Shown piece by piece: positions 1-19,597 of a stretch of DNA of 20,060 nt. The stretch's first letter is position 1. Each line of letters begins with the position of its first letter. Below the pieces are notes generated by a model. That model searched no databases. It saw nothing but the letters and a program-made list of their open reading frames with translations, and was not told where the DNA came from. Origin of the DNA: a virus; IMG/VR virus record IMGVR_UViG_3300024999_000484, positions 1 through 20,060 of that record. The stretch is one strand, 5' to 3'. The position numbers were made by a program, and so were the translations under genes.

Positions 1-952
1 CTCTTTCATTATTGATTTCAATCTTTTCACCATATTTTTTATTTACATCAAATGTTTTATTATTAGGTGTCCATAAAGAATAATATGGACATAAATGTTT
101 TAGGTTTTTATCTGCCAATGGAGTATTATTTGAAAAATCACACCAATAACATAAAGGAGTTGGTTTTGGAATATATTCGTTTTTTTCTAGACACTCTTCA
201 AGTTTAGCGAATAATTTATCTAGTTTTTTTACTCCTCTATTATAATATCCTTTTGTACATGCTTTTTGTTTTGCTCCTATGAAGATAAAGTCATAAATAA
301 ATTCAATTGGTAATTTATCATATAATTTTTCACATGCCATTGCGTATATAAACATTTGTAAAGGTGTTACTACTTTATTATCTGGGTATATTGCTTTAGA
401 TGTTTTATAGTCAACTACTCTTAAATCTCCATTTTCGTTAATATCAATCCTATCAATGAATCCGCGAATAGTATATTTATTTTTATATGTAAAACTAAAT
501 CCTTTCTCTACTGCTAATACACTCCAACCATTTTCTAACGGTATAGTTTTTAAATGATCTAAATATAGGTTTATTTTTTCATCATATGTCATTCCTGATT
601 TATTGCATATTTCGGAATAAGTATCAAAGTATTTTTTCTTTATGTCTTTAATTCCAAGTATATCTTCAATTTCGTTTTCTACCTCTATGCCATTTAGAAT
701 TTCTATCTTATGTATCTCTAATCCATTTTCAATAATTTGTTGAATGTATCCAAAGTCAGGCTCTTCATCATCAATTAAATATTGTCCCCATTTTTCCTTT
801 CCCATATGACCTAAAGTACCAAGTTCTAATGCTAGAGCAGATTTATCAGAATGATGCTCATCAATGTATTTTAATTTATATCTGTAAGCACACTGGTCGA
901 ATAAATCTAATCTACTATAACTAAATTTTGAATCACTTACGAAATATTGCAT
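1..952 (-). CDS. Fe-S RecB/Cas4-type PD-(D/E)XK nuclease, 3' end outside window
   Basis: This gene encodes a PD-(D/E)XK exonuclease-like protein of the RecB/AddB/Cas4 superfamily; 317 codons are visible and the frame is open at the left edge. Motifs in order: N-terminal SYSRLDLFDQC (Cys21), the motif LGTLGHMG (His49), GFIDRID (Asp167), VVDYKTSK (Asp181, Lys183) and a QxxxY-like LQMFIYAM (Gln199). Then come Cys268, Cys271 and Cys288, which with Cys21 form the four-cysteine set of Fe-S-clamped nucleases. The ATG at 952 follows GGGGAGGAAG and lies 16 nt inside the upstream primase gene, so the two are translationally coupled. Inferred role: processing of DNA ends during phage replication or recombination. 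The family is clear; the exact polarity and partner are not. Confidence 0.88.
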   Translation of the reverse strand, partial: MQYFVSDSKFSYSRLDLFDQCAYRYKLKYIDEHHSDKSALALELGTLGHMGKEKWGQYLIDDEEPDFGYIQQIIENGLEIHKIEILNGIEVENEIEDILGIKDIKKKYFDTYSEICNKSGMTYDEKINLYLDHLKTIPLENGWSVLAVEKGFSFTYKNKYTIRGFIDRIDINENGDLRVVDYKTSKAIYPDNKVVTPLQMFIYAMACEKLYDKLPIEFIYDFIFIGAKQKACTKGYYNRGVKKLDKLFAKLEECLEKNEYIPKPTPLCYWCDFSNNTPLADKNLKHLCPYYSLWTPNNKTFDVNKKYGEKIEINNER

Positions 953-2067
953 GGTTGAACTTCCTCCCCATTTTTTGTTTTTATTTCATATTTATGTTTC
1001 ATTAAAACCTCTAAAATTTCTTTTCCTTTGTCACATGGACTATCTTTGTGATCAAGTAAATTTGCATCATCCCATAATATATATACTTGACAATATGGTG
1101 TAAATGGCATTGCTATTTTAAGGAGTTTTTCTGCAAATTTATAAGCTTCATTACTATTAGTGTCCTTAAATTGCTTATCAAATCCAATAAATATTTCTTT
1201 AGGTTGAAGAGATAATATCATACTCCTTTGTTGTGGAGAGATTGACATACCGCATACAGCAATAGAAAAATTATTTTCACCATAAAAATCTTCGCATTTA
1301 AGGCAACTTTTTTCTCCTTCAAATATTATTACCTTTTTAATCTTTTTAATCGTTTCTTGAGTATGGTTTAGTCCATATAGATTTAAAGCTAATGGATGAC
1401 TATATTGTTGTTTTTCAACTATTAGGGGCATATATTTCTTTTTAGCTAATATATCATCTTCTCTTAGTGCTCTGCCTCTAATACCAACTAAATTGCTATT
1501 AATATCATAATGAGGAATCACAATTTTATCATCTTTAATGTAATATTTAATTCCGTACTTTTCCATTGTTTTAATTGATATACCTTCATCGATCCATGTT
1601 TGATGATAGATTCCTTGAAATACATCAAGTACAGTATCATTTACCACAGATAAACTTACTATTGGCTTTAAAACTCTTTTGTATTTTTTTATCCAATCCC
1701 AATCGTCTATAATATAATCCTTATCAAGCTTAGAGAATATTGAAGACATATGGATATTCTTATTAGTAAGTGCAGCAACATATTTGATACATTCGTAAAA
1801 ACTAAGTTTAATATTTCGGTTTAGTTTAGAACGTCTTACTAATTCATAAACGTCAAAAGTATCACTACATGCGGTATAACAATGAAATGTCTTACTATCT
1901 TTAAAATAATGTAATTTATATGATCCTCCACTACTGTTGTGACAAACAGTTTGAAATAATAAATTGTTGTCTTTGTCTCTATGTGAATCTTCACTACCTA
2001 AGTCTTTAAGAAGCATTATTATATCTTGTTCATCTAATTCTTGTTTAATTCTTTCTTTATCAAGCAT
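937..2067 (-). CDS. DNA primase, CHC2-like zinc finger plus TOPRIM
   Basis: Primase that would lay RNA primers for phage DNA synthesis. With the longest possible start (GTG 2076) numbered 1, Cys45-His46 and FHCYTAC (Cys66, Cys70) form the CHC2-type zinc site. The second half holds a TOPRIM domain: IIFEGEKS (Glu253/Glu255) and FIGFDKQF (Asp300). About 376 residues, a usual size for a phage primase without a helicase domain. I place the start at the ATG at 2067 because AGGGG lies about 10 nt upstream; the GTG at 2074-2076 almost touches that RBS. It sits 13 nt after the helicase gene and overlaps the nuclease gene. The zinc motif is VCHN rather than the usual CPFH, a divergent form. Confidence 0.85.
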   Translation of the reverse strand: MLDKERIKQELDEQDIIMLLKDLGSEDSHRDKDNNLLFQTVCHNSSGGSYKLHYFKDSKTFHCYTACSDTFDVYELVRRSKLNRNIKLSFYECIKYVAALTNKNIHMSSIFSKLDKDYIIDDWDWIKKYKRVLKPIVSLSVVNDTVLDVFQGIYHQTWIDEGISIKTMEKYGIKYYIKDDKIVIPHYDINSNLVGIRGRALREDDILAKKKYMPLIVEKQQYSHPLALNLYGLNHTQETIKKIKKVIIFEGEKSCLKCEDFYGENNFSIAVCGMSISPQQRSMILSLQPKEIFIGFDKQFKDTNSNEAYKFAEKLLKIAMPFTPYCQVYILWDDANLLDHKDSPCDKGKEILEVLMKHKYEIKTKNGEEVQPCNIS

Positions 2068-2080
2068 TTTATTCACACCC

Positions 2081-3679
2081 CTAAAAACTAAAGAGTGCTT
2101 TAGTTGAATTCTCTTCGTCTTCCTTATCTATTACTAACTCTTTCTCATCAACTGAATGTTCATCAAGTATAGCATCAATCATTTCAATTTTTGTAGATTC
2201 AACAGGAATAACCTCGTATTTATTATTTGTAAGGAATAATTCCGTCAATCGCATATTGCCAAGATTAACATACAACCATAACTTCACTCTTGAAAGTTTG
2301 CCACGCCTTACTTTATAAATATGGTAAACCATATTGGGCACAGGATATATTCCTTTTGATAGTATGGGTTTTAATGAATCTAAATCTGATGCAGTAGGCT
2401 CCAATGCTACGACTCCTAAATCTATCTTGTCGGCGATGGCTTTAGCTCCACGAAGTACATTTTGGTCAGCATCTTTTACATTCTTGTATTCACCAGTTGT
2501 TTGGGTTGAACTATCAATATGAACATTAAATTTATTACACATTGCTTTTAATCTGTCTGAGAACATTAATAATATTTGATCTTCTCTTAATTTCATACCT
2601 TTAGATATGTTAGCAATTTCAGCCATAAGTTTCATGGATGTATGTAGATAGTCAAATAATATATATTGTACTTTATTCTCAATTTGATATCTTCTGATAA
2701 CTGTTTCGATGTCTTCAATGTTAAAATCAGACATATATTCAATCCACAATGGAGATTGTTCAATAAATTCTATTGCTTGATTTACTCTTTCTTCTTCATC
2801 TTCTTTATATTTACCATCTAATATTTTATCCTCTTCAACTCCACTAGTATAGGCCACAAGCATTGTTTGTACTTCTTCAATTTCTAATTCCGTTGTAATA
2901 TATAGAGTAGGTTCTGATATGCCTCTATACATCCATTTCTTTTCTTTTAAATCCCATATGTAAGGTACAGCATAACTACAGGCATCTCCGGCTGCTAAAC
3001 GACTTTTCCCCAAACCAGTTGGTGCTGATCTTAGATAAAACTTTTTTAATCTTGCTCCTCTTGCGATAGTATTCATTATATTACTTGCCATTGGAATACC
3101 CATGTCAGGTGCTTCTTTGCATTTTTCTTTTAGCTGATATAACCCTTCTCCTGCTTTTTGACCTTGATTGCTTATGTTCATTAAATGCTTATTTTTAATA
3201 TCTATAACTTTTTTTTCAATTATGTTAAAAATATCTTGAACAGACAAATTGTCAAATTTTGCTTGCATTTTTTCTTGTTCTCTTGGCTCAACAATTGCTT
3301 CATTGTAAATTTCATCAATATCAATTCCTTGTTCAATAAAAGTTCTTAGCAAACTGAATTTCTTCATTCTTTCATAAGAATAATCAAAATTATTAAGATT
3401 GCTATTGTCTTTGCACTCGATAATATAATCCATTCCATTATTCTCGTTAAATATTTTATACTGTAATTCATATGGAGATAAATAATTGTCAATTGCTATG
3501 TAATCAATACTTTTTACGCCTTGTAAATATAAGTTGTGTATTGAAGCAAAAATCATCTTATGAAATATTTCTTCAAAATCATCTCTATCAACAGTGTATC
3601 TACTATCACTTAATAGTTCAGGATTTTGTAATAAACAACCTAGTATTTGAAGGTAGCTTCGCTTACATGATAGACTCAG
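2081..3679 (-). CDS. DnaB-type replicative helicase, probable CUG start
   Basis: Hexameric replicative helicase of the DnaB/RecA-fold family. Numbered from GTG 3688, the N-terminal ~100 residues resemble the DnaB N domain. The ATPase core has Walker A APTGLGKS (222-229), a glutamate in TTELE after it (266-269), Walker B ILFDY (343-347), the STQTTGE sensor region (394-400) and LRGAKAIADKID (412-423). The gene follows the zinc-finger gene directly. GTG 3688 would overlap the upstream TGA as GTGA but has no RBS in front of it. By contrast GAGGTG (within 3686-3691) lies 8 nt before an in-frame CTG at 3679, and no ATG or TTG follows for more than 40 codons. I therefore favour CTG; GTG coupling is the alternative. 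Family assignment is firm, the start is not. Confidence 0.85.
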   Translation of the reverse strand: MSLSCKRSYLQILGCLLQNPELLSDSRYTVDRDDFEEIFHKMIFASIHNLYLQGVKSIDYIAIDNYLSPYELQYKIFNENNGMDYIIECKDNSNLNNFDYSYERMKKFSLLRTFIEQGIDIDEIYNEAIVEPREQEKMQAKFDNLSVQDIFNIIEKKVIDIKNKHLMNISNQGQKAGEGLYQLKEKCKEAPDMGIPMASNIMNTIARGARLKKFYLRSAPTGLGKSRLAAGDACSYAVPYIWDLKEKKWMYRGISEPTLYITTELEIEEVQTMLVAYTSGVEEDKILDGKYKEDEEERVNQAIEFIEQSPLWIEYMSDFNIEDIETVIRRYQIENKVQYILFDYLHTSMKLMAEIANISKGMKLREDQILLMFSDRLKAMCNKFNVHIDSSTQTTGEYKNVKDADQNVLRGAKAIADKIDLGVVALEPTASDLDSLKPILSKGIYPVPNMVYHIYKVRRGKLSRVKLWLYVNLGNMRLTELFLTNNKYEVIPVESTKIEMIDAILDEHSVDEKELVIDKEDEENSTKALFSF

Positions 3680-3684
3680 TGTGT

Positions 3685-4272
3685 TCACCTCAAATCGTCA
3701 ATATTAATTAGTTTAATGTTGTTTTCATTTTGTTTCCTTATTTTAACTACTTTAGGAGTAACTGCTTCAGTCATATCAAATGTATTTACTTGTTTAATAA
3801 TTTCTTTTTTCCTCTGTTCGTACTCTTGAGCTTCAGCATATGTATAAGGTATAATTCCTACGCAGTCCGATACAATGGGATTATTTTGCAATTCATAAAA
3901 ATACTTTAATGTAGTCAACATACCATTGTAACTAAATTTATAAGTAATATAATAATCTTTTAGTAATTTATATGTTTTAACATTAAGTTTTGGTATTTTT
4001 AGTAATTTTTTTAGATAATCAAATAGCACATCTTTTGCCAATATTTCTTCATCTGAAATTTCTGCTTCAGGTTGAATAGAAGTTTCTTTTTGTAGTTTAT
4101 CTTTCACTTTTTCAATTTTTTGTTTTTGTTTACTCTCTTCTATTTTAGTGGTTTGTCTTGACATACTACTAAAACAATCAACATGGTAATATTTCTTTTT
4201 ATATTCAAATGCATCTTCTTTATTAACCGTAGTTTTACACAAAGGACATACGCATGGTCTTCCTCTTCCCAT
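3685..4272 (-). CDS. Zinc-finger protein of the replication operon, function unknown
   Basis: A 195-residue protein with an N-terminal zinc site, Cys9-x2-Cys12 and His30-x2-Cys33 (CPLC ... YYHVDC), then a charged linker rich in Lys, Glu and Gln (about 40-70). A helical C-terminal half follows (LKYFYELQNNPIV, then VGIIPYTYAEAQEYEQ). The ATG follows GGAG with 8 nt spacing. It lies between the Sak4-like ATPase and the helicase, and its stop codon overlaps the helicase RBS. The position is that of a helicase loader or adaptor in many phage replication operons, but I see no motif that proves this. Function is inferred from context only. Confidence 0.75.
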   Translation of the reverse strand: MGRGRPCVCPLCKTTVNKEDAFEYKKKYYHVDCFSSMSRQTTKIEESKQKQKIEKVKDKLQKETSIQPEAEISDEEILAKDVLFDYLKKLLKIPKLNVKTYKLLKDYYITYKFSYNGMLTTLKYFYELQNNPIVSDCVGIIPYTYAEAQEYEQRKKEIIKQVNTFDMTEAVTPKVVKIRKQNENNIKLINIDDLR

Positions 4273-4296
4273 TGAATCAACTCCAATACATTATAA

Positions 4297-4326
4297 GTAG
4301 ACAGGCATAAATTAACACCTGCCTAC
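4297..4326 (-). other. Intergenic RNA hairpin upstream of zinc-finger gene
   Basis: In the minus-strand transcript GTAGGCAGGT pairs with GCCTGTCTAC around a loop of about 10 nt; the two non-Watson-Crick pairs are G-U wobbles in that strand. It lies between the ATPase stop and the next RBS. No U-run follows, so it is not a standard intrinsic terminator; mRNA processing or stabilisation is possible. Confidence 0.6.
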
Positions 4327-4340
4327 TCACAATACTTATA

Positions 4341-5321
4341 TTATATTGACAATTCTTTTGCTCTATCTACTAGATCATCATAAATAACAGACATTACTTC
4401 TACTTGCAATTTAGTACACTCACTCACTTTTTTGCCTTTACCAAGATATTTTTCTACTATCTCCACAAGTTGCGTCACATTATCAGAGTTGATAAACTTT
4501 TCACCTATAGTACCGATATTGGTCATTAATTGATCATAATCAAGAACTTCTGATTCAAAAGTTGTTTTTTGTTCTTGAAAAGAAACTGCTTTAACGCCTT
4601 CAGCCTCTTCTTGTCTTTGAATCGCTTGAACAATAGCATCTTCTAAATTCTCTGCCGTAAATTCTTTGATGTATGTATCAATATAATCAAATCTACTTCT
4701 GGCAAAATACGTATCAGTTTGAGCGAGATATCCAGATGATTTAATTACTTTTTTATCCTCATCTACGCCATTTGACTCTAGGTATACAACAATATCACAG
4801 TTGTCAATGATTGGTTCTAATGCTCTTTTATCACCTTTTGGAAGAGTTAAGCCATTTTTATTTTCTGTTTTGTGTGCAATGAAGATAACAGTATATCCTG
4901 CACCTGTCAATTGATTAATCTCTGTCCAATATTCGGTTTCATATTCTTTCCATAAGCCAAATCCTTCATTTCCATCTTTTAGTCTTGAAACACCGTACAC
5001 GCTATTAATATACTTTTGACAATATTTAGCTGATGCTTCAACTTCATCAAAAATAATAGTAGAATACAACTCTCTGGCTTTTCCCACAGATCCAATACTT
5101 GTTAATTGTTTATTCCATTTCTTGAAATCTGCCCATGAATTAATTGGGACATGTGGCACTCCTGAAATTGCATTTAGTCCTTTTTCAAATGGAAGATATA
5201 ATGGTTTTTTCATTCTTGTTGCTTGTAACGTCTTGCCTAAATTGTTCCCGCCATAAACCATAATTGTTTTTCCTTCTAAACCTTTTGCAACAACAGACAC
5301 TTGTGGGTTAAAAATATCCAA
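4341..5321 (-). CDS. Sak4/AAA_24-like RecA-fold ATPase
   Basis: 326-residue P-loop ATPase with Walker A GGNNLGKT (24-31), Walker B STIIFDEVE (Asp92, Glu93) and a sensor strand VIFIAHKTE (His150). The short RecA-like core and its place beside an ssDNA-binding protein match phage Sak4-type recombination ATPases, which work with an SSB in single-strand annealing. The C-terminal ~90 residues are charged and helical. It starts at TTG 5321, with AAAGGGGAT seven to eight nt upstream and no better start near it. A strong hairpin lies just upstream. The alternative is a general AAA_24 nucleotide-binding protein; I consider the ATPase call safe and the recombination role likely. Confidence 0.82.
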   Translation of the reverse strand: MDIFNPQVSVVAKGLEGKTIMVYGGNNLGKTLQATRMKKPLYLPFEKGLNAISGVPHVPINSWADFKKWNKQLTSIGSVGKARELYSTIIFDEVEASAKYCQKYINSVYGVSRLKDGNEGFGLWKEYETEYWTEINQLTGAGYTVIFIAHKTENKNGLTLPKGDKRALEPIIDNCDIVVYLESNGVDEDKKVIKSSGYLAQTDTYFARSRFDYIDTYIKEFTAENLEDAIVQAIQRQEEAEGVKAVSFQEQKTTFESEVLDYDQLMTNIGTIGEKFINSDNVTQLVEIVEKYLGKGKKVSECTKLQVEVMSVIYDDLVDRAKELSI

Positions 5322-5345
5322 TATAATAATCCCCTTTCAATTTGG

Positions 5346-5372
5346 AGGATAGGTGGTGTATTCACCTATCCT
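5346..5372 (-). other. Intergenic RNA hairpin upstream of ATPase gene
   Basis: A perfect 10-bp inverted repeat: AGGATAGGTG and CACCTATCCT (minus strand) around a 7-nt loop, 25 nt upstream of the ATPase start and 39 nt after the ssDNA-binding gene stop. The minus transcript continues CCAAATTG, with no U-run, so termination is unlikely. It may define an mRNA end or set the ratio of the two products. Confidence 0.65.
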
Positions 5373-5411
5373 TATTATCTTATTCACTAATTAGTTTTAA
5401 TTATACAATTC

Positions 5412-6323
5412 TTAAAACGGTAGGTCTTTTCCACTTTTAGGTGTAGAAGATGTAGTTTTACCTTTTCCACTTGTAGTATTAGATTTTTTATTTTTTAATT
5501 CTTCAAGATGCTCTGCTCTTACTGTCATTGCATTTTTAATGGTTTCCATGTTGAATAGTAAAGGACTATCTTCAACATATGGCTCTGTGCCACCAGTGAA
5601 CACCATTTCTCTTGTTGTGATGGTTGTTGTAGTTTCTTTTGGTTTTCCGATTGCAACGGCAGTTATTTTTTTGGTAGTAAACACTGTATTAATCAAATCA
5701 CCATAAATTTTAATTGTTTGACCTGCTTCATACATAGAGTCTACGGCATCAATATATTCTTTATCCGCTACAATAAACTCCATAGGAACTACTTTTCCAT
5801 CATAAATAGGAACCAATCCACTGATTATTTTTCTTCCTGTTAAATCGCCAGTTTTTTTATCTATCTCGTCATTAATTTTATGTATGAATACTTCCACTTC
5901 AAACTCTGCTTTTGGTTCATACTCTTCTCCAGGTTTTAATCTATTAACAAAATTTGTATTGATTTTAATAGGAGACTTCAATTCGCCAGCAGGATTATAG
6001 TAATCATTTACTACAAGTTTTGCCCCAGTAATTCTTACTTTATCAGCTTCCTCCTTGCCAACCTTTGCAATGGATTTATATTCATCCATTATTGTTGTCA
6101 ATCCTTTGAATACCGAATTATCATTTCCATCTTTTTTCAATTTATAAGCGAAAACATCAACTGTATGAATTGAATTTTCCTCTGTTTGAATAACAACTTC
6201 TCCAGTAATCGCTTCTTTACCTTGTACTTGTTTTACTTCGATATTAATTTCTGATACTGTTCCTTCAATTGTTACTTTGTTCTCAGCTTCTCTAAGTAGT
6301 GTATTTGCATTGTTTTCAGTCAT
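5412..6323 (-). CDS. Single-stranded DNA-binding protein with SSB-like acidic tip
   Basis: 303-residue protein, mostly beta-rich, with what looks like OB-fold sequence in the first ~220 residues (VTIEGTVSEINIEV, then KIISGLVPIYDGKVVP and AGQTIKIYGDLIN). A low-complexity Lys/Ser/Thr linker and a terminal GKDLPF follow. The last four residues DLPF resemble the DDIPF tip by which bacterial SSB recruits replication partners. It is the first large gene of the replication operon and precedes a Sak4-like ATPase, the usual partner of an SSB. The ATG at 6323 has AGAAGGA 8 nt upstream, but this RBS lies inside a 13-bp stem (see 6333-6398). The ssDNA-binding role is inferred from tail and context; the sequence is too diverged for a named family. 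Confidence 0.72.
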   Translation of the reverse strand: MTENNANTLLREAENKVTIEGTVSEINIEVKQVQGKEAITGEVVIQTEENSIHTVDVFAYKLKKDGNDNSVFKGLTTIMDEYKSIAKVGKEEADKVRITGAKLVVNDYYNPAGELKSPIKINTNFVNRLKPGEEYEPKAEFEVEVFIHKINDEIDKKTGDLTGRKIISGLVPIYDGKVVPMEFIVADKEYIDAVDSMYEAGQTIKIYGDLINTVFTTKKITAVAIGKPKETTTTITTREMVFTGGTEPYVEDSPLLFNMETIKNAMTVRAEHLEELKNKKSNTTSGKGKTTSSTPKSGKDLPF

Positions 6324-9050: not shown

Positions 9051-11039
9051 TTATGGATTTGCTATAATTTCCTTGACAATTTTAGGTATTTTACTTCCAA
9101 TCGCTTTTCTTAATGCTTGAACCTCATAACCTTCAGGCAAAGAGTCACTTTCTTCTTTGAGAATATCTTCATAAATTCTATTACCTAAGTTGCTAAGAAT
9201 TACCCTCATATCTTCAATCCCAAAATCAGATTCAAGAATACCTTCATCAACTAATTTATGTAACATTTTATCAATTCTAGCTTTAGTAACGCACATATTT
9301 GCAAATTCTTGTTCTGGTGTAGCAGGTCGATTAGGGTCTTTAGGAGGTTTTTGTTTTTGTATTTCTACAAATTCTTCATGAACTAGTTTTACAAAACATT
9401 GATTGCCATATTTGTCTTTATATTTTACATTTTTAACTACAATTCCCTCACCATAATTTACTGCCATATCTGATTTACCAACAAAACTCATTAAGTGTTC
9501 AAATGATATGTATTGACCTTTGTATAAAATAGGAACTGTATTTAAACCCAATCTGATTGCTTCGCTTTCCATAATGTCATCGGATAAATATTCTTGTAAA
9601 TCATCATCATAAATACTAAATAAGTAAAACTTTTGATAATATTCAGATTTATATTGAATTTTATGAGATGCTAAATATTCACCAAAATATCTATACTTTG
9701 GATTTAACAATTCAGGTTTAATATTATCTTTAATCCAATTATAATAACCTCTTAAAGTATTAGACTCATTTACTGGCCCATTTCTAGAAAATCCATCTAC
9801 TTTATTTTCTTCATTAAGTTTTAAGGACGCATTAGAATTATGTACTAAAATTCCTCCGGCAAAATAATTGTTATTATCCTCTATTTCTAAATCATAATTA
9901 TCCATTGTTGTTAAGTAAGAAGGTATATCCTTATGATTTGTTATTTTAATAGGAAATAATCCATCAGTATTGGTAATTATATAATAATCCCAGAAAGTTT
10001 TGTTCATTTGATATTCAGGAGGTAATTTATATTGCATACATTTTGGAATATAACAAGCAATTAAAGTAAAGAAAATATTACTACTATAGGTATCTAATAT
10101 TATTTTATAATATCGGTCTTTATAAAATGATTTAGAAGAAATAATATTAAATTTATCCTTTAGCATATTTATTAGCAAATCATTTTCTTCTTCTGAAAAT
10201 CCTTCTGTATGTAAATTTACCCTATCCTTTTGATTATCGTTATGGCTCAAACTTCCATCATCCATATACCAAAAAGCTAAACTAATAGGATTTATATTTT
10301 GTAACCATTCAGCATTTACCTGTTTTTTATTATTTTCATTCATACACATATTAACCATTTCATTTATTGGTTTACTACAAATACTAAGACTTCTGGTTGC
10401 TTCACTTCCATAACCAGTAGTTATTTCCTCACTTTTTAAATAATTTCCACCTAATATTTTATTTTTAAATTGTGAATATTCTATTTGTTTATTGGAATGG
10501 GTATAAACGATTCCTCTATTCCTCTCATTTGAGTAATTTTCTAATGTTGGATAGGCAGAAGAATCCCCTAACATTGTTCCTAATATCAATTGTTCTTGGA
10601 CATAATCTAATGATTCCATAAAAGTATATATAGTATCTTCGCTTGTTAAATGTATTGCTTCTTTCCAACCATTACTCGTCCAAAACAAATGATCTTCTGT
10701 GCATATAATTTTATTAGGTCTACCACCTTGTCTCAGAGGAGATTGATACGTCATACATATAAATTTTTTGCTTTTTCCATGATTCAACCAACTTGTTATT
10801 TTTTTCGGCTCTAATTTATTATTTTCAAAATTAAATGTCATTACTTCTACTTGCATTTTATTATTAACTATTTTGCCTATTTTCTCCTTACTTCCATCAG
10901 ACAATGTAATTAATGTATCATAATGAAAACAACCGTCTAATTTTTCAGTTATAGTTATGTAATCCCCTTCGTTTAAAACTCCTACTGTTGATCTATGTCC
11001 TAGACGAACAATATCTGTATATTTCTTAATATCTCCCAT
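9051..11039 (-). CDS. Rnl2-type RNA ligase precursor interrupted by an intein
   Basis: 662-residue precursor; removal of residues 37-401 leaves a 297-residue ligase, a normal size for T4 Rnl2-like enzymes that seal RNA (for example tRNA cut by host defences). Ligase motifs: motif I EKLDG (Lys33 would take AMP) joined after splicing to SNASLK, motif III YFGEYL (451-456), IIIa FYLFSIYD (471-478), motif IV EGIVVKN (531-537) and motif V with Lys551 in FVKLVHEEF. A C-terminal helical domain of ~100 residues follows. The ATG at 11039 has GGAG eight nt upstream. No kinase/phosphatase partner lies in the window. Activity must depend on splicing because the intein splits the nucleotidyl-transfer motif. 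Confidence 0.9.
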   Translation of the reverse strand: MGDIKKYTDIVRLGHRSTVGVLNEGDYITITEKLDGCFHYDTLITLSDGSKEKIGKIVNNKMQVEVMTFNFENNKLEPKKITSWLNHGKSKKFICMTYQSPLRQGGRPNKIICTEDHLFWTSNGWKEAIHLTSEDTIYTFMESLDYVQEQLILGTMLGDSSAYPTLENYSNERNRGIVYTHSNKQIEYSQFKNKILGGNYLKSEEITTGYGSEATRSLSICSKPINEMVNMCMNENNKKQVNAEWLQNINPISLAFWYMDDGSLSHNDNQKDRVNLHTEGFSEEENDLLINMLKDKFNIISSKSFYKDRYYKIILDTYSSNIFFTLIACYIPKCMQYKLPPEYQMNKTFWDYYIITNTDGLFPIKITNHKDIPSYLTTMDNYDLEIEDNNNYFAGGILVHNSNASLKLNEENKVDGFSRNGPVNESNTLRGYYNWIKDNIKPELLNPKYRYFGEYLASHKIQYKSEYYQKFYLFSIYDDDLQEYLSDDIMESEAIRLGLNTVPILYKGQYISFEHLMSFVGKSDMAVNYGEGIVVKNVKYKDKYGNQCFVKLVHEEFVEIQKQKPPKDPNRPATPEQEFANMCVTKARIDKMLHKLVDEGILESDFGIEDMRVILSNLGNRIYEDILKEESDSLPEGYEVQALRKAIGSKIPKIVKEIIANP
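9837..10931 (-). mobile_element. Intein with LAGLIDADG homing endonuclease domain
   Basis: Codes for residues 37-401 of the ligase precursor (365 residues). Begins Cys37 (CFHYDTLITLSDGS, block A); block B GGRPNKIICTEDHLFWTSNG with TEDH; two LAGLIDADG-type motifs LILGTMLGDSSAY (151-163) and LAFWYMDDGSLS (254-265); block F YDLEIEDNNNYFAG; block G GILVHN, ending His400-Asn401 with Ser402 as the +1 extein residue. All catalytic residues for splicing and the acidic endonuclease residues (Asp159, Asp260/261) are present, so both activities look intact. Confidence 0.93.
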
Positions 11040-11101
11040 TTATTACTCTCCTTTTTATTATTTTTATAGAATCCAAAACGAATGGTTCATTGAACTACAA
11101 T

Positions 11102-12785: not shown

Positions 12786-13697
12786 TTATTTCCCTGATCC
12801 ATCTGTAATTGGCAATTGAATCATTTGATTTCCACCCACAACTTGAGGATATGCCCCATTCCATTTCAATACAGATTGATATTTAACAAGTGTATCAGTT
12901 AAAGATGCTTGTAATAGATTATTAGCTTCTGCTTCACCTTTTGCTTTGATAACTGCTGCATCAGCTACCCCTTGAGCATCTACCCTTGCTTTATTTGCTG
13001 TAACTGTAGATTGTGATAATTCAATTTCCATTTGCTGAAGTTTTTGTTGTGCATCAACTTTTGCTTGAATTGCTTTCATAGTGTCAGTATCAGGACGAAT
13101 TTCTCCAAAACTAAACGTTTCAACTTCTAGACCAAATGGAGTTAATTCTTTAATCAATATGTCATGAATTTTATTTTGTATTTCTGAACGTTTATTGCCA
13201 TATAAATCAAGAACACTATAACTAGATGTAACAGATTGTGATGCTGTTTTCACTTGTTGTTTAAGATAGCCGGATTGGATTGATTCAATATCTGCACCTT
13301 TGAAACGATTGAATATTGCAGGTAATTTTTCTACATTCACATGATATGTAAAGTAAGCGTCTACGTTCACAGGTTTACCTTCCATTGTAGAAGTATTGTA
13401 TGAATCATCATTGGGTGAACCCTCAGTTGCACCTTTAGTCAACCATACGGTTTCAGTAGAAATAGGATATTCTCTTACGCTTTTCCAAGGTGCTACAATA
13501 TGCCATCCTTGACTTAATGTAATATCTTCTAGGCCACCAGATACATTATAGACAATTCCTGCATGTCCTGGATTAATTTTTGTAGTAGATAAAGCAAAAC
13601 CTGCAAGTAAAACAACTGCTGATACTCCAACTGTAATTAAACCTTTGGTGAATTTATTCATTTCAAACAAATCTCCAATTTCAAAATTATTTCTCAT
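12786..13697 (-). CDS. Prohibitin/SPFH (band 7) family membrane protein
   Basis: 303 residues. One membrane segment near the N-terminus (about 17-37, LITVGVSAVVLLAGFALS), then the prohibitin-type PHB domain with INPGHAGIVYNV, SQGWHIVAPWKSVREYPI and VDAYFTYHVN, and a long helical region rich in Ala/Gln/Lys (about 210-265) typical of SPFH oligomers. SPFH proteins form ring or cage scaffolds on membranes. Start: ATG 13697 with GAGGAG about 10 nt upstream; ATG 13661 (GGAG at 11 nt) is possible and loses 12 residues. Phage versions of this family are known; their role is not settled. Confidence 0.88.
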   Translation of the reverse strand: MRNNFEIGDLFEMNKFTKGLITVGVSAVVLLAGFALSTTKINPGHAGIVYNVSGGLEDITLSQGWHIVAPWKSVREYPISTETVWLTKGATEGSPNDDSYNTSTMEGKPVNVDAYFTYHVNVEKLPAIFNRFKGADIESIQSGYLKQQVKTASQSVTSSYSVLDLYGNKRSEIQNKIHDILIKELTPFGLEVETFSFGEIRPDTDTMKAIQAKVDAQQKLQQMEIELSQSTVTANKARVDAQGVADAAVIKAKGEAEANNLLQASLTDTLVKYQSVLKWNGAYPQVVGGNQMIQLPITDGSGK

Positions 13698-16884: not shown

Positions 16885-17067
16885 TTATAACTTAAGTGCT
16901 ATAATATCGAATAGTTTTAATGCCGATCCTATGCTCCCACATCCTAAAATAAGTGGTATAAATTTAAAGAAAATAGTTGATCTAAAATTTTTTGTACTCA
17001 TCATAATGCTCACCATAATCATATATAATCCTGCCAACAAAGAAGTCCAACCAAACATATTAAACAT
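16885..17067 (-). CDS. Small membrane protein, two segments
   Basis: 60 residues, ATG at 17067 overlapping the upstream stop (TAATG), GAGG close before it. Hydrophobic segments about 5-23 and 32-55 with a short basic loop (TKNFRST). No family recognised; likely a small inner-membrane protein. Confidence 0.66.
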   Translation of the reverse strand: MFNMFGWTSLLAGLYMIMVSIMMSTKNFRSTIFFKFIPLILGCGSIGSALKLFDIIALKL

Positions 17068-17763: not shown

Positions 17764-18234
17764 CTAAATTCCTAATTCTTTATAATCCATTGGCAACTGA
17801 TAAGGCAATTCTTTTGCTTTAAACAATTCCCTATTTAATTTTTTACTGTTTGAGTTAAATTCAGATACAATCTTTTGATATTGTATTAAATATCCCTCTA
17901 AAGTTTGTTGTTGAAAAGATAAATCATTTCGTACATCTTTTGGATACTTACTAGCATCTTCGCCATAAGTTTCTTTTAAGTTATTAATTTGAGTTTTACT
18001 ATTTGAAATATTAACTGCTTGTTGTTTTGCTCCTTGATAAAGATCATAAAATTGTTCATAATTAAAGATTGCATTATCAGCATTAAGTGTTTTATCCACA
18101 ATCCCATATCCAGTTTCAGCAGTTTTATCTAGTACATGGACAGGAAACAGAACTGTTTTCCATACAAATCCAGCAAATCCAATAATAAATACAATTCCTA
18201 ATACAGACAACCAAATTTTACCTAAACTTTTCAT
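17764..18234 (-). CDS. Membrane-anchored coiled-coil protein
   Basis: 156 residues, ATG at 18234 with GGAGG nine nt upstream. N-terminal membrane segment (about 7-27, IWLSVLGIVFIIGFAGFVW) without a lipobox, then a soluble, helix-rich part with heptad-like runs (AKQQAVNISNSKTQINNLK and LIQYQKIVSEFNSNSKKLN). Likely anchored with the bulk outside. Two nt from the lipoprotein gene, so probably a partner of it. LemA-like architecture, but no family match is certain. Confidence 0.72.
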   Translation of the reverse strand: MKSLGKIWLSVLGIVFIIGFAGFVWKTVLFPVHVLDKTAETGYGIVDKTLNADNAIFNYEQFYDLYQGAKQQAVNISNSKTQINNLKETYGEDASKYPKDVRNDLSFQQQTLEGYLIQYQKIVSEFNSNSKKLNRELFKAKELPYQLPMDYKELGI

Positions 18235-18236
18235 TA

Positions 18237-18830
18237 TTATTTACCTCCATTTATTTGATTCTTTTTAATTTGATCTTCATAATTACTTCTTTTTGATTCT
18301 TCGCCTGCATCAACTTCATAAGTAATTGTTCCATATCCTAAATCAATTTTATAAGGTACAGGAGTTACAAAATAATCACCTCTATGTTGAAACGGGCCTC
18401 TGCCAGCAGGATCAAACCAAAATACATAATCTCCACTTGAACCATAGGCTCCCATTTCATCAGGTGCTTCGCCTAAAGTATAATTACCACCTGAAAGAAA
18501 TTGCTGTGTAGATGTTAAACGTTTGCCGCCTGAAGTAATTTTACCTCTGACTGGGAATCTTCCAATAACTCTCCCTGCGCTCATAGGATAAATCCAAGTT
18601 AATTGATTTGGATCATTAGTATTTTTAAGTCTATTGATAATATTTTCTCTTTCTAGACTACGATTAAAATTTGGTGTAGGTGTTTGTTCCATCATATTTG
18701 CTGCTTGATTTTTCTTATTTTCATTTTGCTCTTTCATTACTTGAGTTGCTTTATCTGGTTCGAGACAACCTGTTAATGGCATACATATAACTGACAATCC
18801 AATAATTCCTGCAATGAATTTCTTTTTCAT
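18237..18830 (-). CDS. Phage-encoded lipoprotein
   Basis: 197 residues, ATG at 18830 after GAAGGA (about 8 nt). Type II signal peptide: KKKFIAGIIGLSVICMP then lipobox LTGC with Cys22. The Gln/Asn-rich linker (about 30-60) leads to a Gly/Pro-rich beta domain (SAGRVIGRFPVRGKITSG and SGDYVFWFDPAGRGPF). Membrane-surface lipoproteins of phages can exclude other phages or sense the envelope; the function here is unproven. Confidence 0.8.
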   Translation of the reverse strand: MKKKFIAGIIGLSVICMPLTGCLEPDKATQVMKEQNENKKNQAANMMEQTPTPNFNRSLERENIINRLKNTNDPNQLTWIYPMSAGRVIGRFPVRGKITSGGKRLTSTQQFLSGGNYTLGEAPDEMGAYGSSGDYVFWFDPAGRGPFQHRGDYFVTPVPYKIDLGYGTITYEVDAGEESKRSNYEDQIKKNQINGGK

Positions 18831-18920
18831 TAATAATTTCCTTCTTTCTTATTTAATAGTTTTGAATATATAATTCGTAAAATGGTTATGATAATAATAA
18901 AACTTTAAGGAGTGGTAGAT

Positions 18921-19067
18921 TTGTTAATTGACATTCTTATACTTATTTTATTCATTATATTACTGATAATCAATGTAAGAGTCAAAGAAGTATCAAAATT
19001 TACAGTAATTACTCTTATTGTTGCTTTTATAGCTGAAACTTTAGTAAGGATACTAAAACAAATTTAA
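18921..19067 (+). CDS. 48-residue membrane microprotein on the opposite strand
   Basis: The only convincing plus-strand gene. TTG at 18921 has AAGGAG eight nt upstream; stop TAA ends at 19067. Product begins LIDILILILFIILLIINVRV (segment about 2-17), then KEVSKF and a second segment VITLIVAFIAETLV, ending RILKQI. Two-helix membrane protein without a known family. It is divergent from the lipoprotein gene and convergent with the 19087-19314 gene. A possible plus-strand -10 (TATGAT or TATAAT) lies in the preceding 70 bp, but the -35 is weak. Confidence 0.62.
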   Translation: MLIDILILILFIILLIINVRVKEVSKFTVITLIVAFIAETLVRILKQI

Positions 19068-19086
19068 AGCATTTAAATTCGACTAT

Positions 19087-19314
19087 TTAAACTAATTCAA
19101 AATGTTCATTAAACCAAGACTTATCATTTTTATCTTCCTGATCACAATTGTCTGATAGAAAATGTTCCTTACCTGTATCATCAATTGTTAAATAGCCTTT
19201 AGTATATTGATCTACTGGATATATTTTTCTAGAAGTAAAACATCTGATCCCTTTATCCATATCGTCTTTATCTTCTGTTTCTAATATAACATCCTTAATA
19301 CATCTTACATTCAC
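19087..19314 (-). CDS. Small acidic unknown protein
   Basis: 75 residues, GTG at 19314 with GGAGGAG about 6 nt upstream. Acidic with MNVRCIKDVILETEDKDD at its start and a beta region (KIYPVDQYTKGYLTIDD) of a kind seen in small SH3-like phage proteins. No family recognised. Confidence 0.68.
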   Translation of the reverse strand: MNVRCIKDVILETEDKDDMDKGIRCFTSRKIYPVDQYTKGYLTIDDTGKEHFLSDNCDQEDKNDKSWFNEHFELV

Positions 19315-19330
19315 TTTAAACTCCTCCTTC

Positions 19331-19597
19331 CTAATCTACATTTGTCCCAATACAAATTGGTATAACTTCGCATTCATTCATAATCTTTCTCCAAGAAGTC
19401 TTTTCTCCTTCATCTTCAAATTCAATATCTAATGTTTCATTACCAACTAAACTAATGGTAAAACCATATTCAAACTGTGATTCATCTTCTCCGCAATAAT
19501 CATGAACAAAATAATCTATTGCTTGAACAAGATTGTTTGCTAAAATCCAATGTTCATAATCACCATCATTAAATTTGTATAACTTTAATTGTTTCAT
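19331..19597 (-). CDS. Small acidic unknown protein
   Basis: 88 residues, ATG at 19597 with GGAGG eleven nt upstream. Acidic; LKLYKFNDGDYEHWILAN at the start and EFEDEGEKTSWRKI near the C-terminus. No family recognised. Seventeen nt from the next gene. Confidence 0.66.
   Translation of the reverse strand: MKQLKLYKFNDGDYEHWILANNLVQAIDYFVHDYCGEDESQFEYGFTISLVGNETLDIEFEDEGEKTSWRKIMNECEVIPICIGTNVD

Follow-up and report, generated by a model that had tools for sequence, protein, structure and literature searches.

Introduction

Superinfection exclusion is the commonest known role of moron-type phage membrane proteins, and HK97 gp15 and T4 Imm are both small proteins located in the membrane. HK97 gp15 is named as a moron element in a title cited by PMC11436027, while T4 Imm acts at DNA injection. 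Small hydrophobic products of another kind are described for the phage SPbeta, which has two type I toxin-antitoxin systems, bsrG/SR4 and yonT-yoyJ/SR6 (PMC8270828, PMC5848175). In the account of PMC6562991, type I toxins are hydrophobic peptides, mostly of less than 60 aa, with a transmembrane helix, and YoyJ has two transmembrane domains.

Here we analyse a 48-aa ORF on an IMG/VR record, a fragment 20,060 bases long (hereinafter "the window", meaning this whole stretch of DNA). Like HK97 gp15 and T4 Imm, its product is a small phage membrane protein, in this case by prediction. Unlike them, it would act in a host that is apparently Gram-positive, an exclusion role would be an inferred one, and no sequence relation of the 48-aa protein to either was found.

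Results

Phage context of the window

Judged by its gene content, the window is one piece of an SPbeta-like genome. It encodes a 326-aa protein that shares ~66% identity with SPbeta YorG, and the genes at 937-6323 are similar in size and arrangement to SPbeta yorF-yorJ, YorG being the one member compared by sequence. Pfam also finds a DnaB domain. A GTDB scan with the YorG homologue gave no match. Among the six related records, the lipoprotein gene listed below is kept in two (G001 and G002, 83-84% identity) and the 88-aa gene in five (90-94% identity); G002 alone has both. An integrase-family match is over the cut-off in G002 (84.4 bits), under the cut-off in G007 and absent from G004 and G005, and no resolvase was found in any of these four records.

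A lone ORF on the plus strand

The features of the region are as follows.

12786-13697, minus strand: SPFH/Band 7 protein gene (domain searches)
17764-18234, minus strand: gene of a membrane-anchored 156-aa protein (ORF list)
18237..18830, minus strand: lipoprotein gene, conserved flank (ORF list; kept in G001 and G002)
18852..19322, no strand: 471-bp variable cassette between conserved flanks, no counterpart sequence (alignments of the window to relatives)
18865..18894, minus strand: weak site resembling a sigma-A promoter (TTATCA-18-TATATT), which may drive the lipoprotein gene (consensus scan)
18907..18912, plus strand: Shine-Dalgarno sequence AAGGAG, 8-nt spacer to the TTG
18921..19067, plus strand: 48-aa ORF with TTG start, predicted two-helix membrane hairpin (ORF list, Shine-Dalgarno sequence, shuffles, AlphaFold2)
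19087..19314, minus strand: 75-aa orphan gene with GTG start, second gene of the cassette (ORF list, homologue searches)
19331..19597, minus strand: 88-aa gene, other conserved flank (five related records)

The ORF runs from the TTG at 18921 to a last sense codon ending at 19064, followed by the stop codon at 19065-19067. A mechanical ORF from GTG 18912 gives a longer form of 51 aa; the TTG is the likelier start because the GTG codon overlaps the Shine-Dalgarno sequence. The gap that holds the whole ORF measures 256 nt and lies between the lipoprotein gene and the 75-aa gene. The ORF is divergent from the lipoprotein gene, with 90 nt between the starts, and convergent with the 75-aa gene, with 19 nt between the two ORFs.

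The observation of a lone plus-strand membrane-microprotein ORF, made in a preliminary description of this DNA, is confirmed. The ribosome site and TTG start claimed there are present, the ORF faces the surrounding main-strand genes from the opposite strand, and the neighbouring gene does encode a protein that begins with a signal peptide and an LTGC lipobox. The number of opposed neighbours, given as about 40, was overstated, as a simple caller lists 31 main-strand genes in the window. The claim that usual gene callers would miss so short an ORF is doubtful as well, its length being 147 nt and the minimum gene length of Prodigal 90 nt. The two membrane segments ascribed to the protein agree with prediction: two segments are hydrophobic on the Kyte-Doolittle scale (2.29 is the minimum of the two means in the better pair of separate 17-residue windows), and AlphaFold2, run on the single sequence, predicts a helical hairpin of helices 2-22 and 27-47 (mean pLDDT 81.7, pTM 0.46). 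The turn joining the predicted helices is short and basic (VRVKEVSK).

The ORF lies in a variable cassette

Homology of the window to G001 and G002 ends immediately short of the lipoprotein gene's ribosome site, at 18851. It resumes at 19323 in G002, where ~1.8 kb of other genes replaces the 471 bp of the window. G002 thus has both flanks of the cassette; G001 has only one. The other four records that carry the 88-aa gene lose homology to the window at 19323 or 19332, where other genes take over, so that all five carry other genes adjoining the 88-aa gene. This gene is split into two frames in G002 (L003 2883-3145); it is a single ORF of 88 aa in three of the four others and is not listed whole in L027. 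The 75-aa gene has no relative in the six related records or in IMG/VR, and its phage matches are weak (best E 0.2). These alignments therefore suggest that the 48-aa ORF and the 75-aa gene form a single accessory cassette at a variable site.

A moron occurs in one phage while its relatives lack it between the corresponding genes, and this is the arrangement found in the comparison with G002. A moron also has its own promoter and terminator. A crude consensus scan found no plus-strand promoter-like site before the ORF and no terminator-like site after it, and for this reason we call the gene moron-like rather than a moron. The same scan found 4 promoter-like sites in the region versus 5.3 expected, which is not above chance.

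Neighbouring genes

The genes of the SPFH/Band 7 protein, the 156-aa protein and the lipoprotein perhaps form an old phage membrane module. Relatives of the lipoprotein occur in 54 phage records (Arthrobacter, Rhizobium, Microbacterium and others) and those of the 156-aa protein in 15 (11 Rhizobium, 4 Arthrobacter), all below 60% identity. On an unrelated, G+C-rich phage contig (L006 4887-5837), a 156-aa-like gene and a gene that by eye is lipoprotein-like are adjacent in the reverse order. The sequence KEQNENKKNQAANMMEQTPTPNFNRSL occurs twice in the G001 lipoprotein (L002 770-1444) and once in the copy of the window.

Elsewhere in the window, an intein that carries a LAGLIDADG endonuclease domain (Pfam) interrupts the RNA ligase gene (9051-11039, minus strand). 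The insertion point, placed by eye, is within the EKLDG/SN nucleotidyl-lysine motif. G001 lacks window positions 9071-11092 at the intein junction.

Coding statistics

Chance ORFs were counted in the counter-strand sequence of all gaps of at least 100 nt in the window, G001 and G002 (84 gaps, 21,949 nt). ORFs of at least 48 aa with a Shine-Dalgarno match of at least 6 are expected 0.017 times over the 84 gaps (300 dinucleotide shuffles) and 0.00015 times in the ORF's own 256-nt gap (20,000 shuffles), figures that, as for all shuffles here, are somewhat flattering because the ORF was picked for its looks. Its codon-phase chi-square is 31.2, compared with a mean of 7.6 in open-frame shuffles, a value reached by 0 of 400 open-frame and 0 of 5,000 plain shuffles. 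Mean hydropathy is 1.93 versus 0.46 in shuffles; none of the 400 open-frame shuffles reaches this value, and none reaches the two-segment hydropathy score. The second codon position is T in 32 of the 48 codons.

A codon-usage model trained on 107 genes of G002 gives no advantage to this frame, which scores -0.081 per codon (synonymous part 0.021). Plus frame 2 (-0.057) and minus frame 1 (-0.054), both of which contain stops, score slightly above it. Because the main-strand gene of a 60-aa membrane protein (16885-17067) also scores low (-0.009), the model is a poor guide to such membrane proteins. We consider the 48-aa ORF likely to be a coding gene.

Homologue searches

No homologue was found by tblastn against phages, using the 48 aa or the C-terminal 30 aa, or against plasmids (E up to 10 in each case), and the protein has no match in PHROGs, Pfam, NCBIfam, PADLOC or PDB. 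Scans for its pattern returned 313 stretches in IMG/VR and 589 matches in GTDB, none of which was confirmed as a homologue; a search of the window's own IMG/VR record recovers the protein with 68.6 bits. Even against the window itself, tblastn aligns only residues 18-48, so that distant relatives could be missed; the short length and the composition limit sensitivity.

Several candidates were rejected. Matches in L024 and L025 (unfiltered tblastn, E 0.010) lie in another frame inside genes of 855 and 859 aa. The best phmmer hits among 7,596 ORF fragments (E 0.39) and among six chosen proteins (YoqO, 4.9 bits) are weak. DNA matches between the gap and G002 fall for the most part on the ribosome-site region of the lipoprotein gene and on other short AT-rich pieces, and we do not count them as homology.

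The protein is absent from all six related records. The preliminary description had regarded the lack of a homologue in any relative as evidence against the gene; the lack is real, yet it does not refute the gene, as the ORF sits in a swapped cassette and absence from relatives is expected of an accessory gene.

Counter-strand ORFs in the phage group

We surveyed 418,937 nt, comprising the window, the six related records and a 38-kb stretch of SPbeta, for intergenic ORFs that lie on the counter-strand, have 25 aa or more and are led by a Shine-Dalgarno sequence. Such ORFs are rare, and the 48-aa ORF is the only one in the window. G002, G006 and G007 have one each, G001 and G004 none, G005 has 11 and the SPbeta stretch six. 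Eight of the 11 in G005 are at 61-76 kb, at the far end, where genes reach 540 aa and the direction of transcription seems to change. A lone hydrophobic ORF of 30 aa lies on the counter-strand in a gap of G002 (78899-78991, minus strand; L020), with AAGGA 12 nt before its ATG.

Both yoqO, which has several hydrophobic stretches, and yoqT are among the ORFs of the SPbeta stretch, so that this phage group is already known to have lone counter-strand genes. Like the 48-aa ORF, the two are hydrophobic counter-strand genes in broadly the same genome region, and yoqO also starts with TTG. They differ in length (124 and 49 aa for yoqO and yoqT), and phmmer finds no meaningful similarity (4.9 and 0.0 bits).

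Discussion

The reading of the ORF as a counter-strand membrane microprotein is well supported by the coding statistics and by the predicted hairpin; no homologue decides its function. The preliminary description had offered holin, toxin or superinfection protein. A toxin is the main rival to the interpretation that we prefer: as a type I toxin, the protein would be small, hydrophobic and kept in check by an antisense RNA. With 48 aa and two predicted helices it has the size and hydrophobicity of such peptides, it belongs to a relative of SPbeta, for which two such systems are described (PMC8270828, PMC5848175), and two weak minus-strand promoter-like sites lie within the ORF (18985-18957 and 18973-18945). 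Promoter-like sites are not above chance in this region, however, and the scan gave no terminator-like site, nor does any Rfam family reach its gathering score. YonT, YoyJ and BsrG are likewise small and hydrophobic, and YoyJ shares the two transmembrane domains (PMC6562991), but YonT, the one toxin covered by the sequence comparison, has no meaningful similarity in phmmer and consists of one hydrophobic stretch with a long basic tail, whereas the 48-aa protein has two predicted helices and no tail. On balance we regard a type I toxin as unlikely. The holin, for its part, is very improbable. Its small size and two predicted hydrophobic helices would suit a lysis protein, but the gene faces against the operon in an accessory region clustered with yorF-yorJ-like replication genes, its neighbours are the lipoprotein gene and small genes with no lysis gene seen beside it, no endolysin was recognised among the part of the window's proteins that was scanned, and no holin family in PHROGs, Pfam or NCBIfam is matched. 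Between toxin and exclusion there is no homologue to decide.

That the ORF is no gene at all, and is open by chance in AT-rich sequence that forms the lipoprotein gene's promoter region, would fit the failure to find a homologue, the codon model, the possible promoter within the gap and the way in which the ORF was selected. Against this stand the expectation of 0.017 such ORFs over 84 gaps and the phase and hydropathy values that 0 of 400 open-frame shuffles reach, and we consider it unlikely. The protein might instead be a small partner or regulator of the adjoining membrane proteins (the lipoprotein, the 156-aa protein and the SPFH/Band 7 protein), given that several membrane proteins are encoded in the region and that the ORF diverges from the lipoprotein gene at a distance of 90 nt. 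G001 and G002, however, retain the lipoprotein and 156-aa genes without the microprotein, and distant phages have relatives of both genes while no phage record yielded the microprotein, which makes a partner decidedly unlikely.

Our preferred interpretation, held tentatively and at somewhat less than even confidence as a whole, is a real moron-like accessory gene for a microprotein effector of the host membrane, with superinfection exclusion as the likeliest single role. In this model, a small accessory cassette would encode a 48-residue integral membrane protein with two helices and, between them, a short basic turn. The protein would be expressed apart from the long minus-strand operon, would insert in the host cytoplasmic membrane and may alter the function of the host envelope to the gain of the phage. 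Expression, membrane insertion and the exclusion role are what we infer, and no observation favours exclusion specifically; searches of PHROGs, Pfam, NCBIfam and PADLOC gave no sequence relation to superinfection exclusion families.

A broader view would make the 48-aa protein a new two-helix microprotein family within a pool of fast-turnover counter-strand cassettes of SPbeta-like phages, in which each phage has its own unrelated membrane effector against rival phages or host defences. The 30-aa peptide of G002 (78899-78991) and SPbeta yoqO and yoqT would then be further members of the pool. We think this view quite unlikely.

Under the preferred reading of a moron-like accessory gene, the 48-aa gene looks like an ordinary kind of orphan phage accessory gene, and the sequence by itself answers no long-standing question. 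If expressed, it would be another orphan phage membrane microprotein, of a kind often missed by annotation, at a site where cassettes are swapped. The cassette offers a defined 471-bp piece for tests of exclusion, toxicity or counter-defence.
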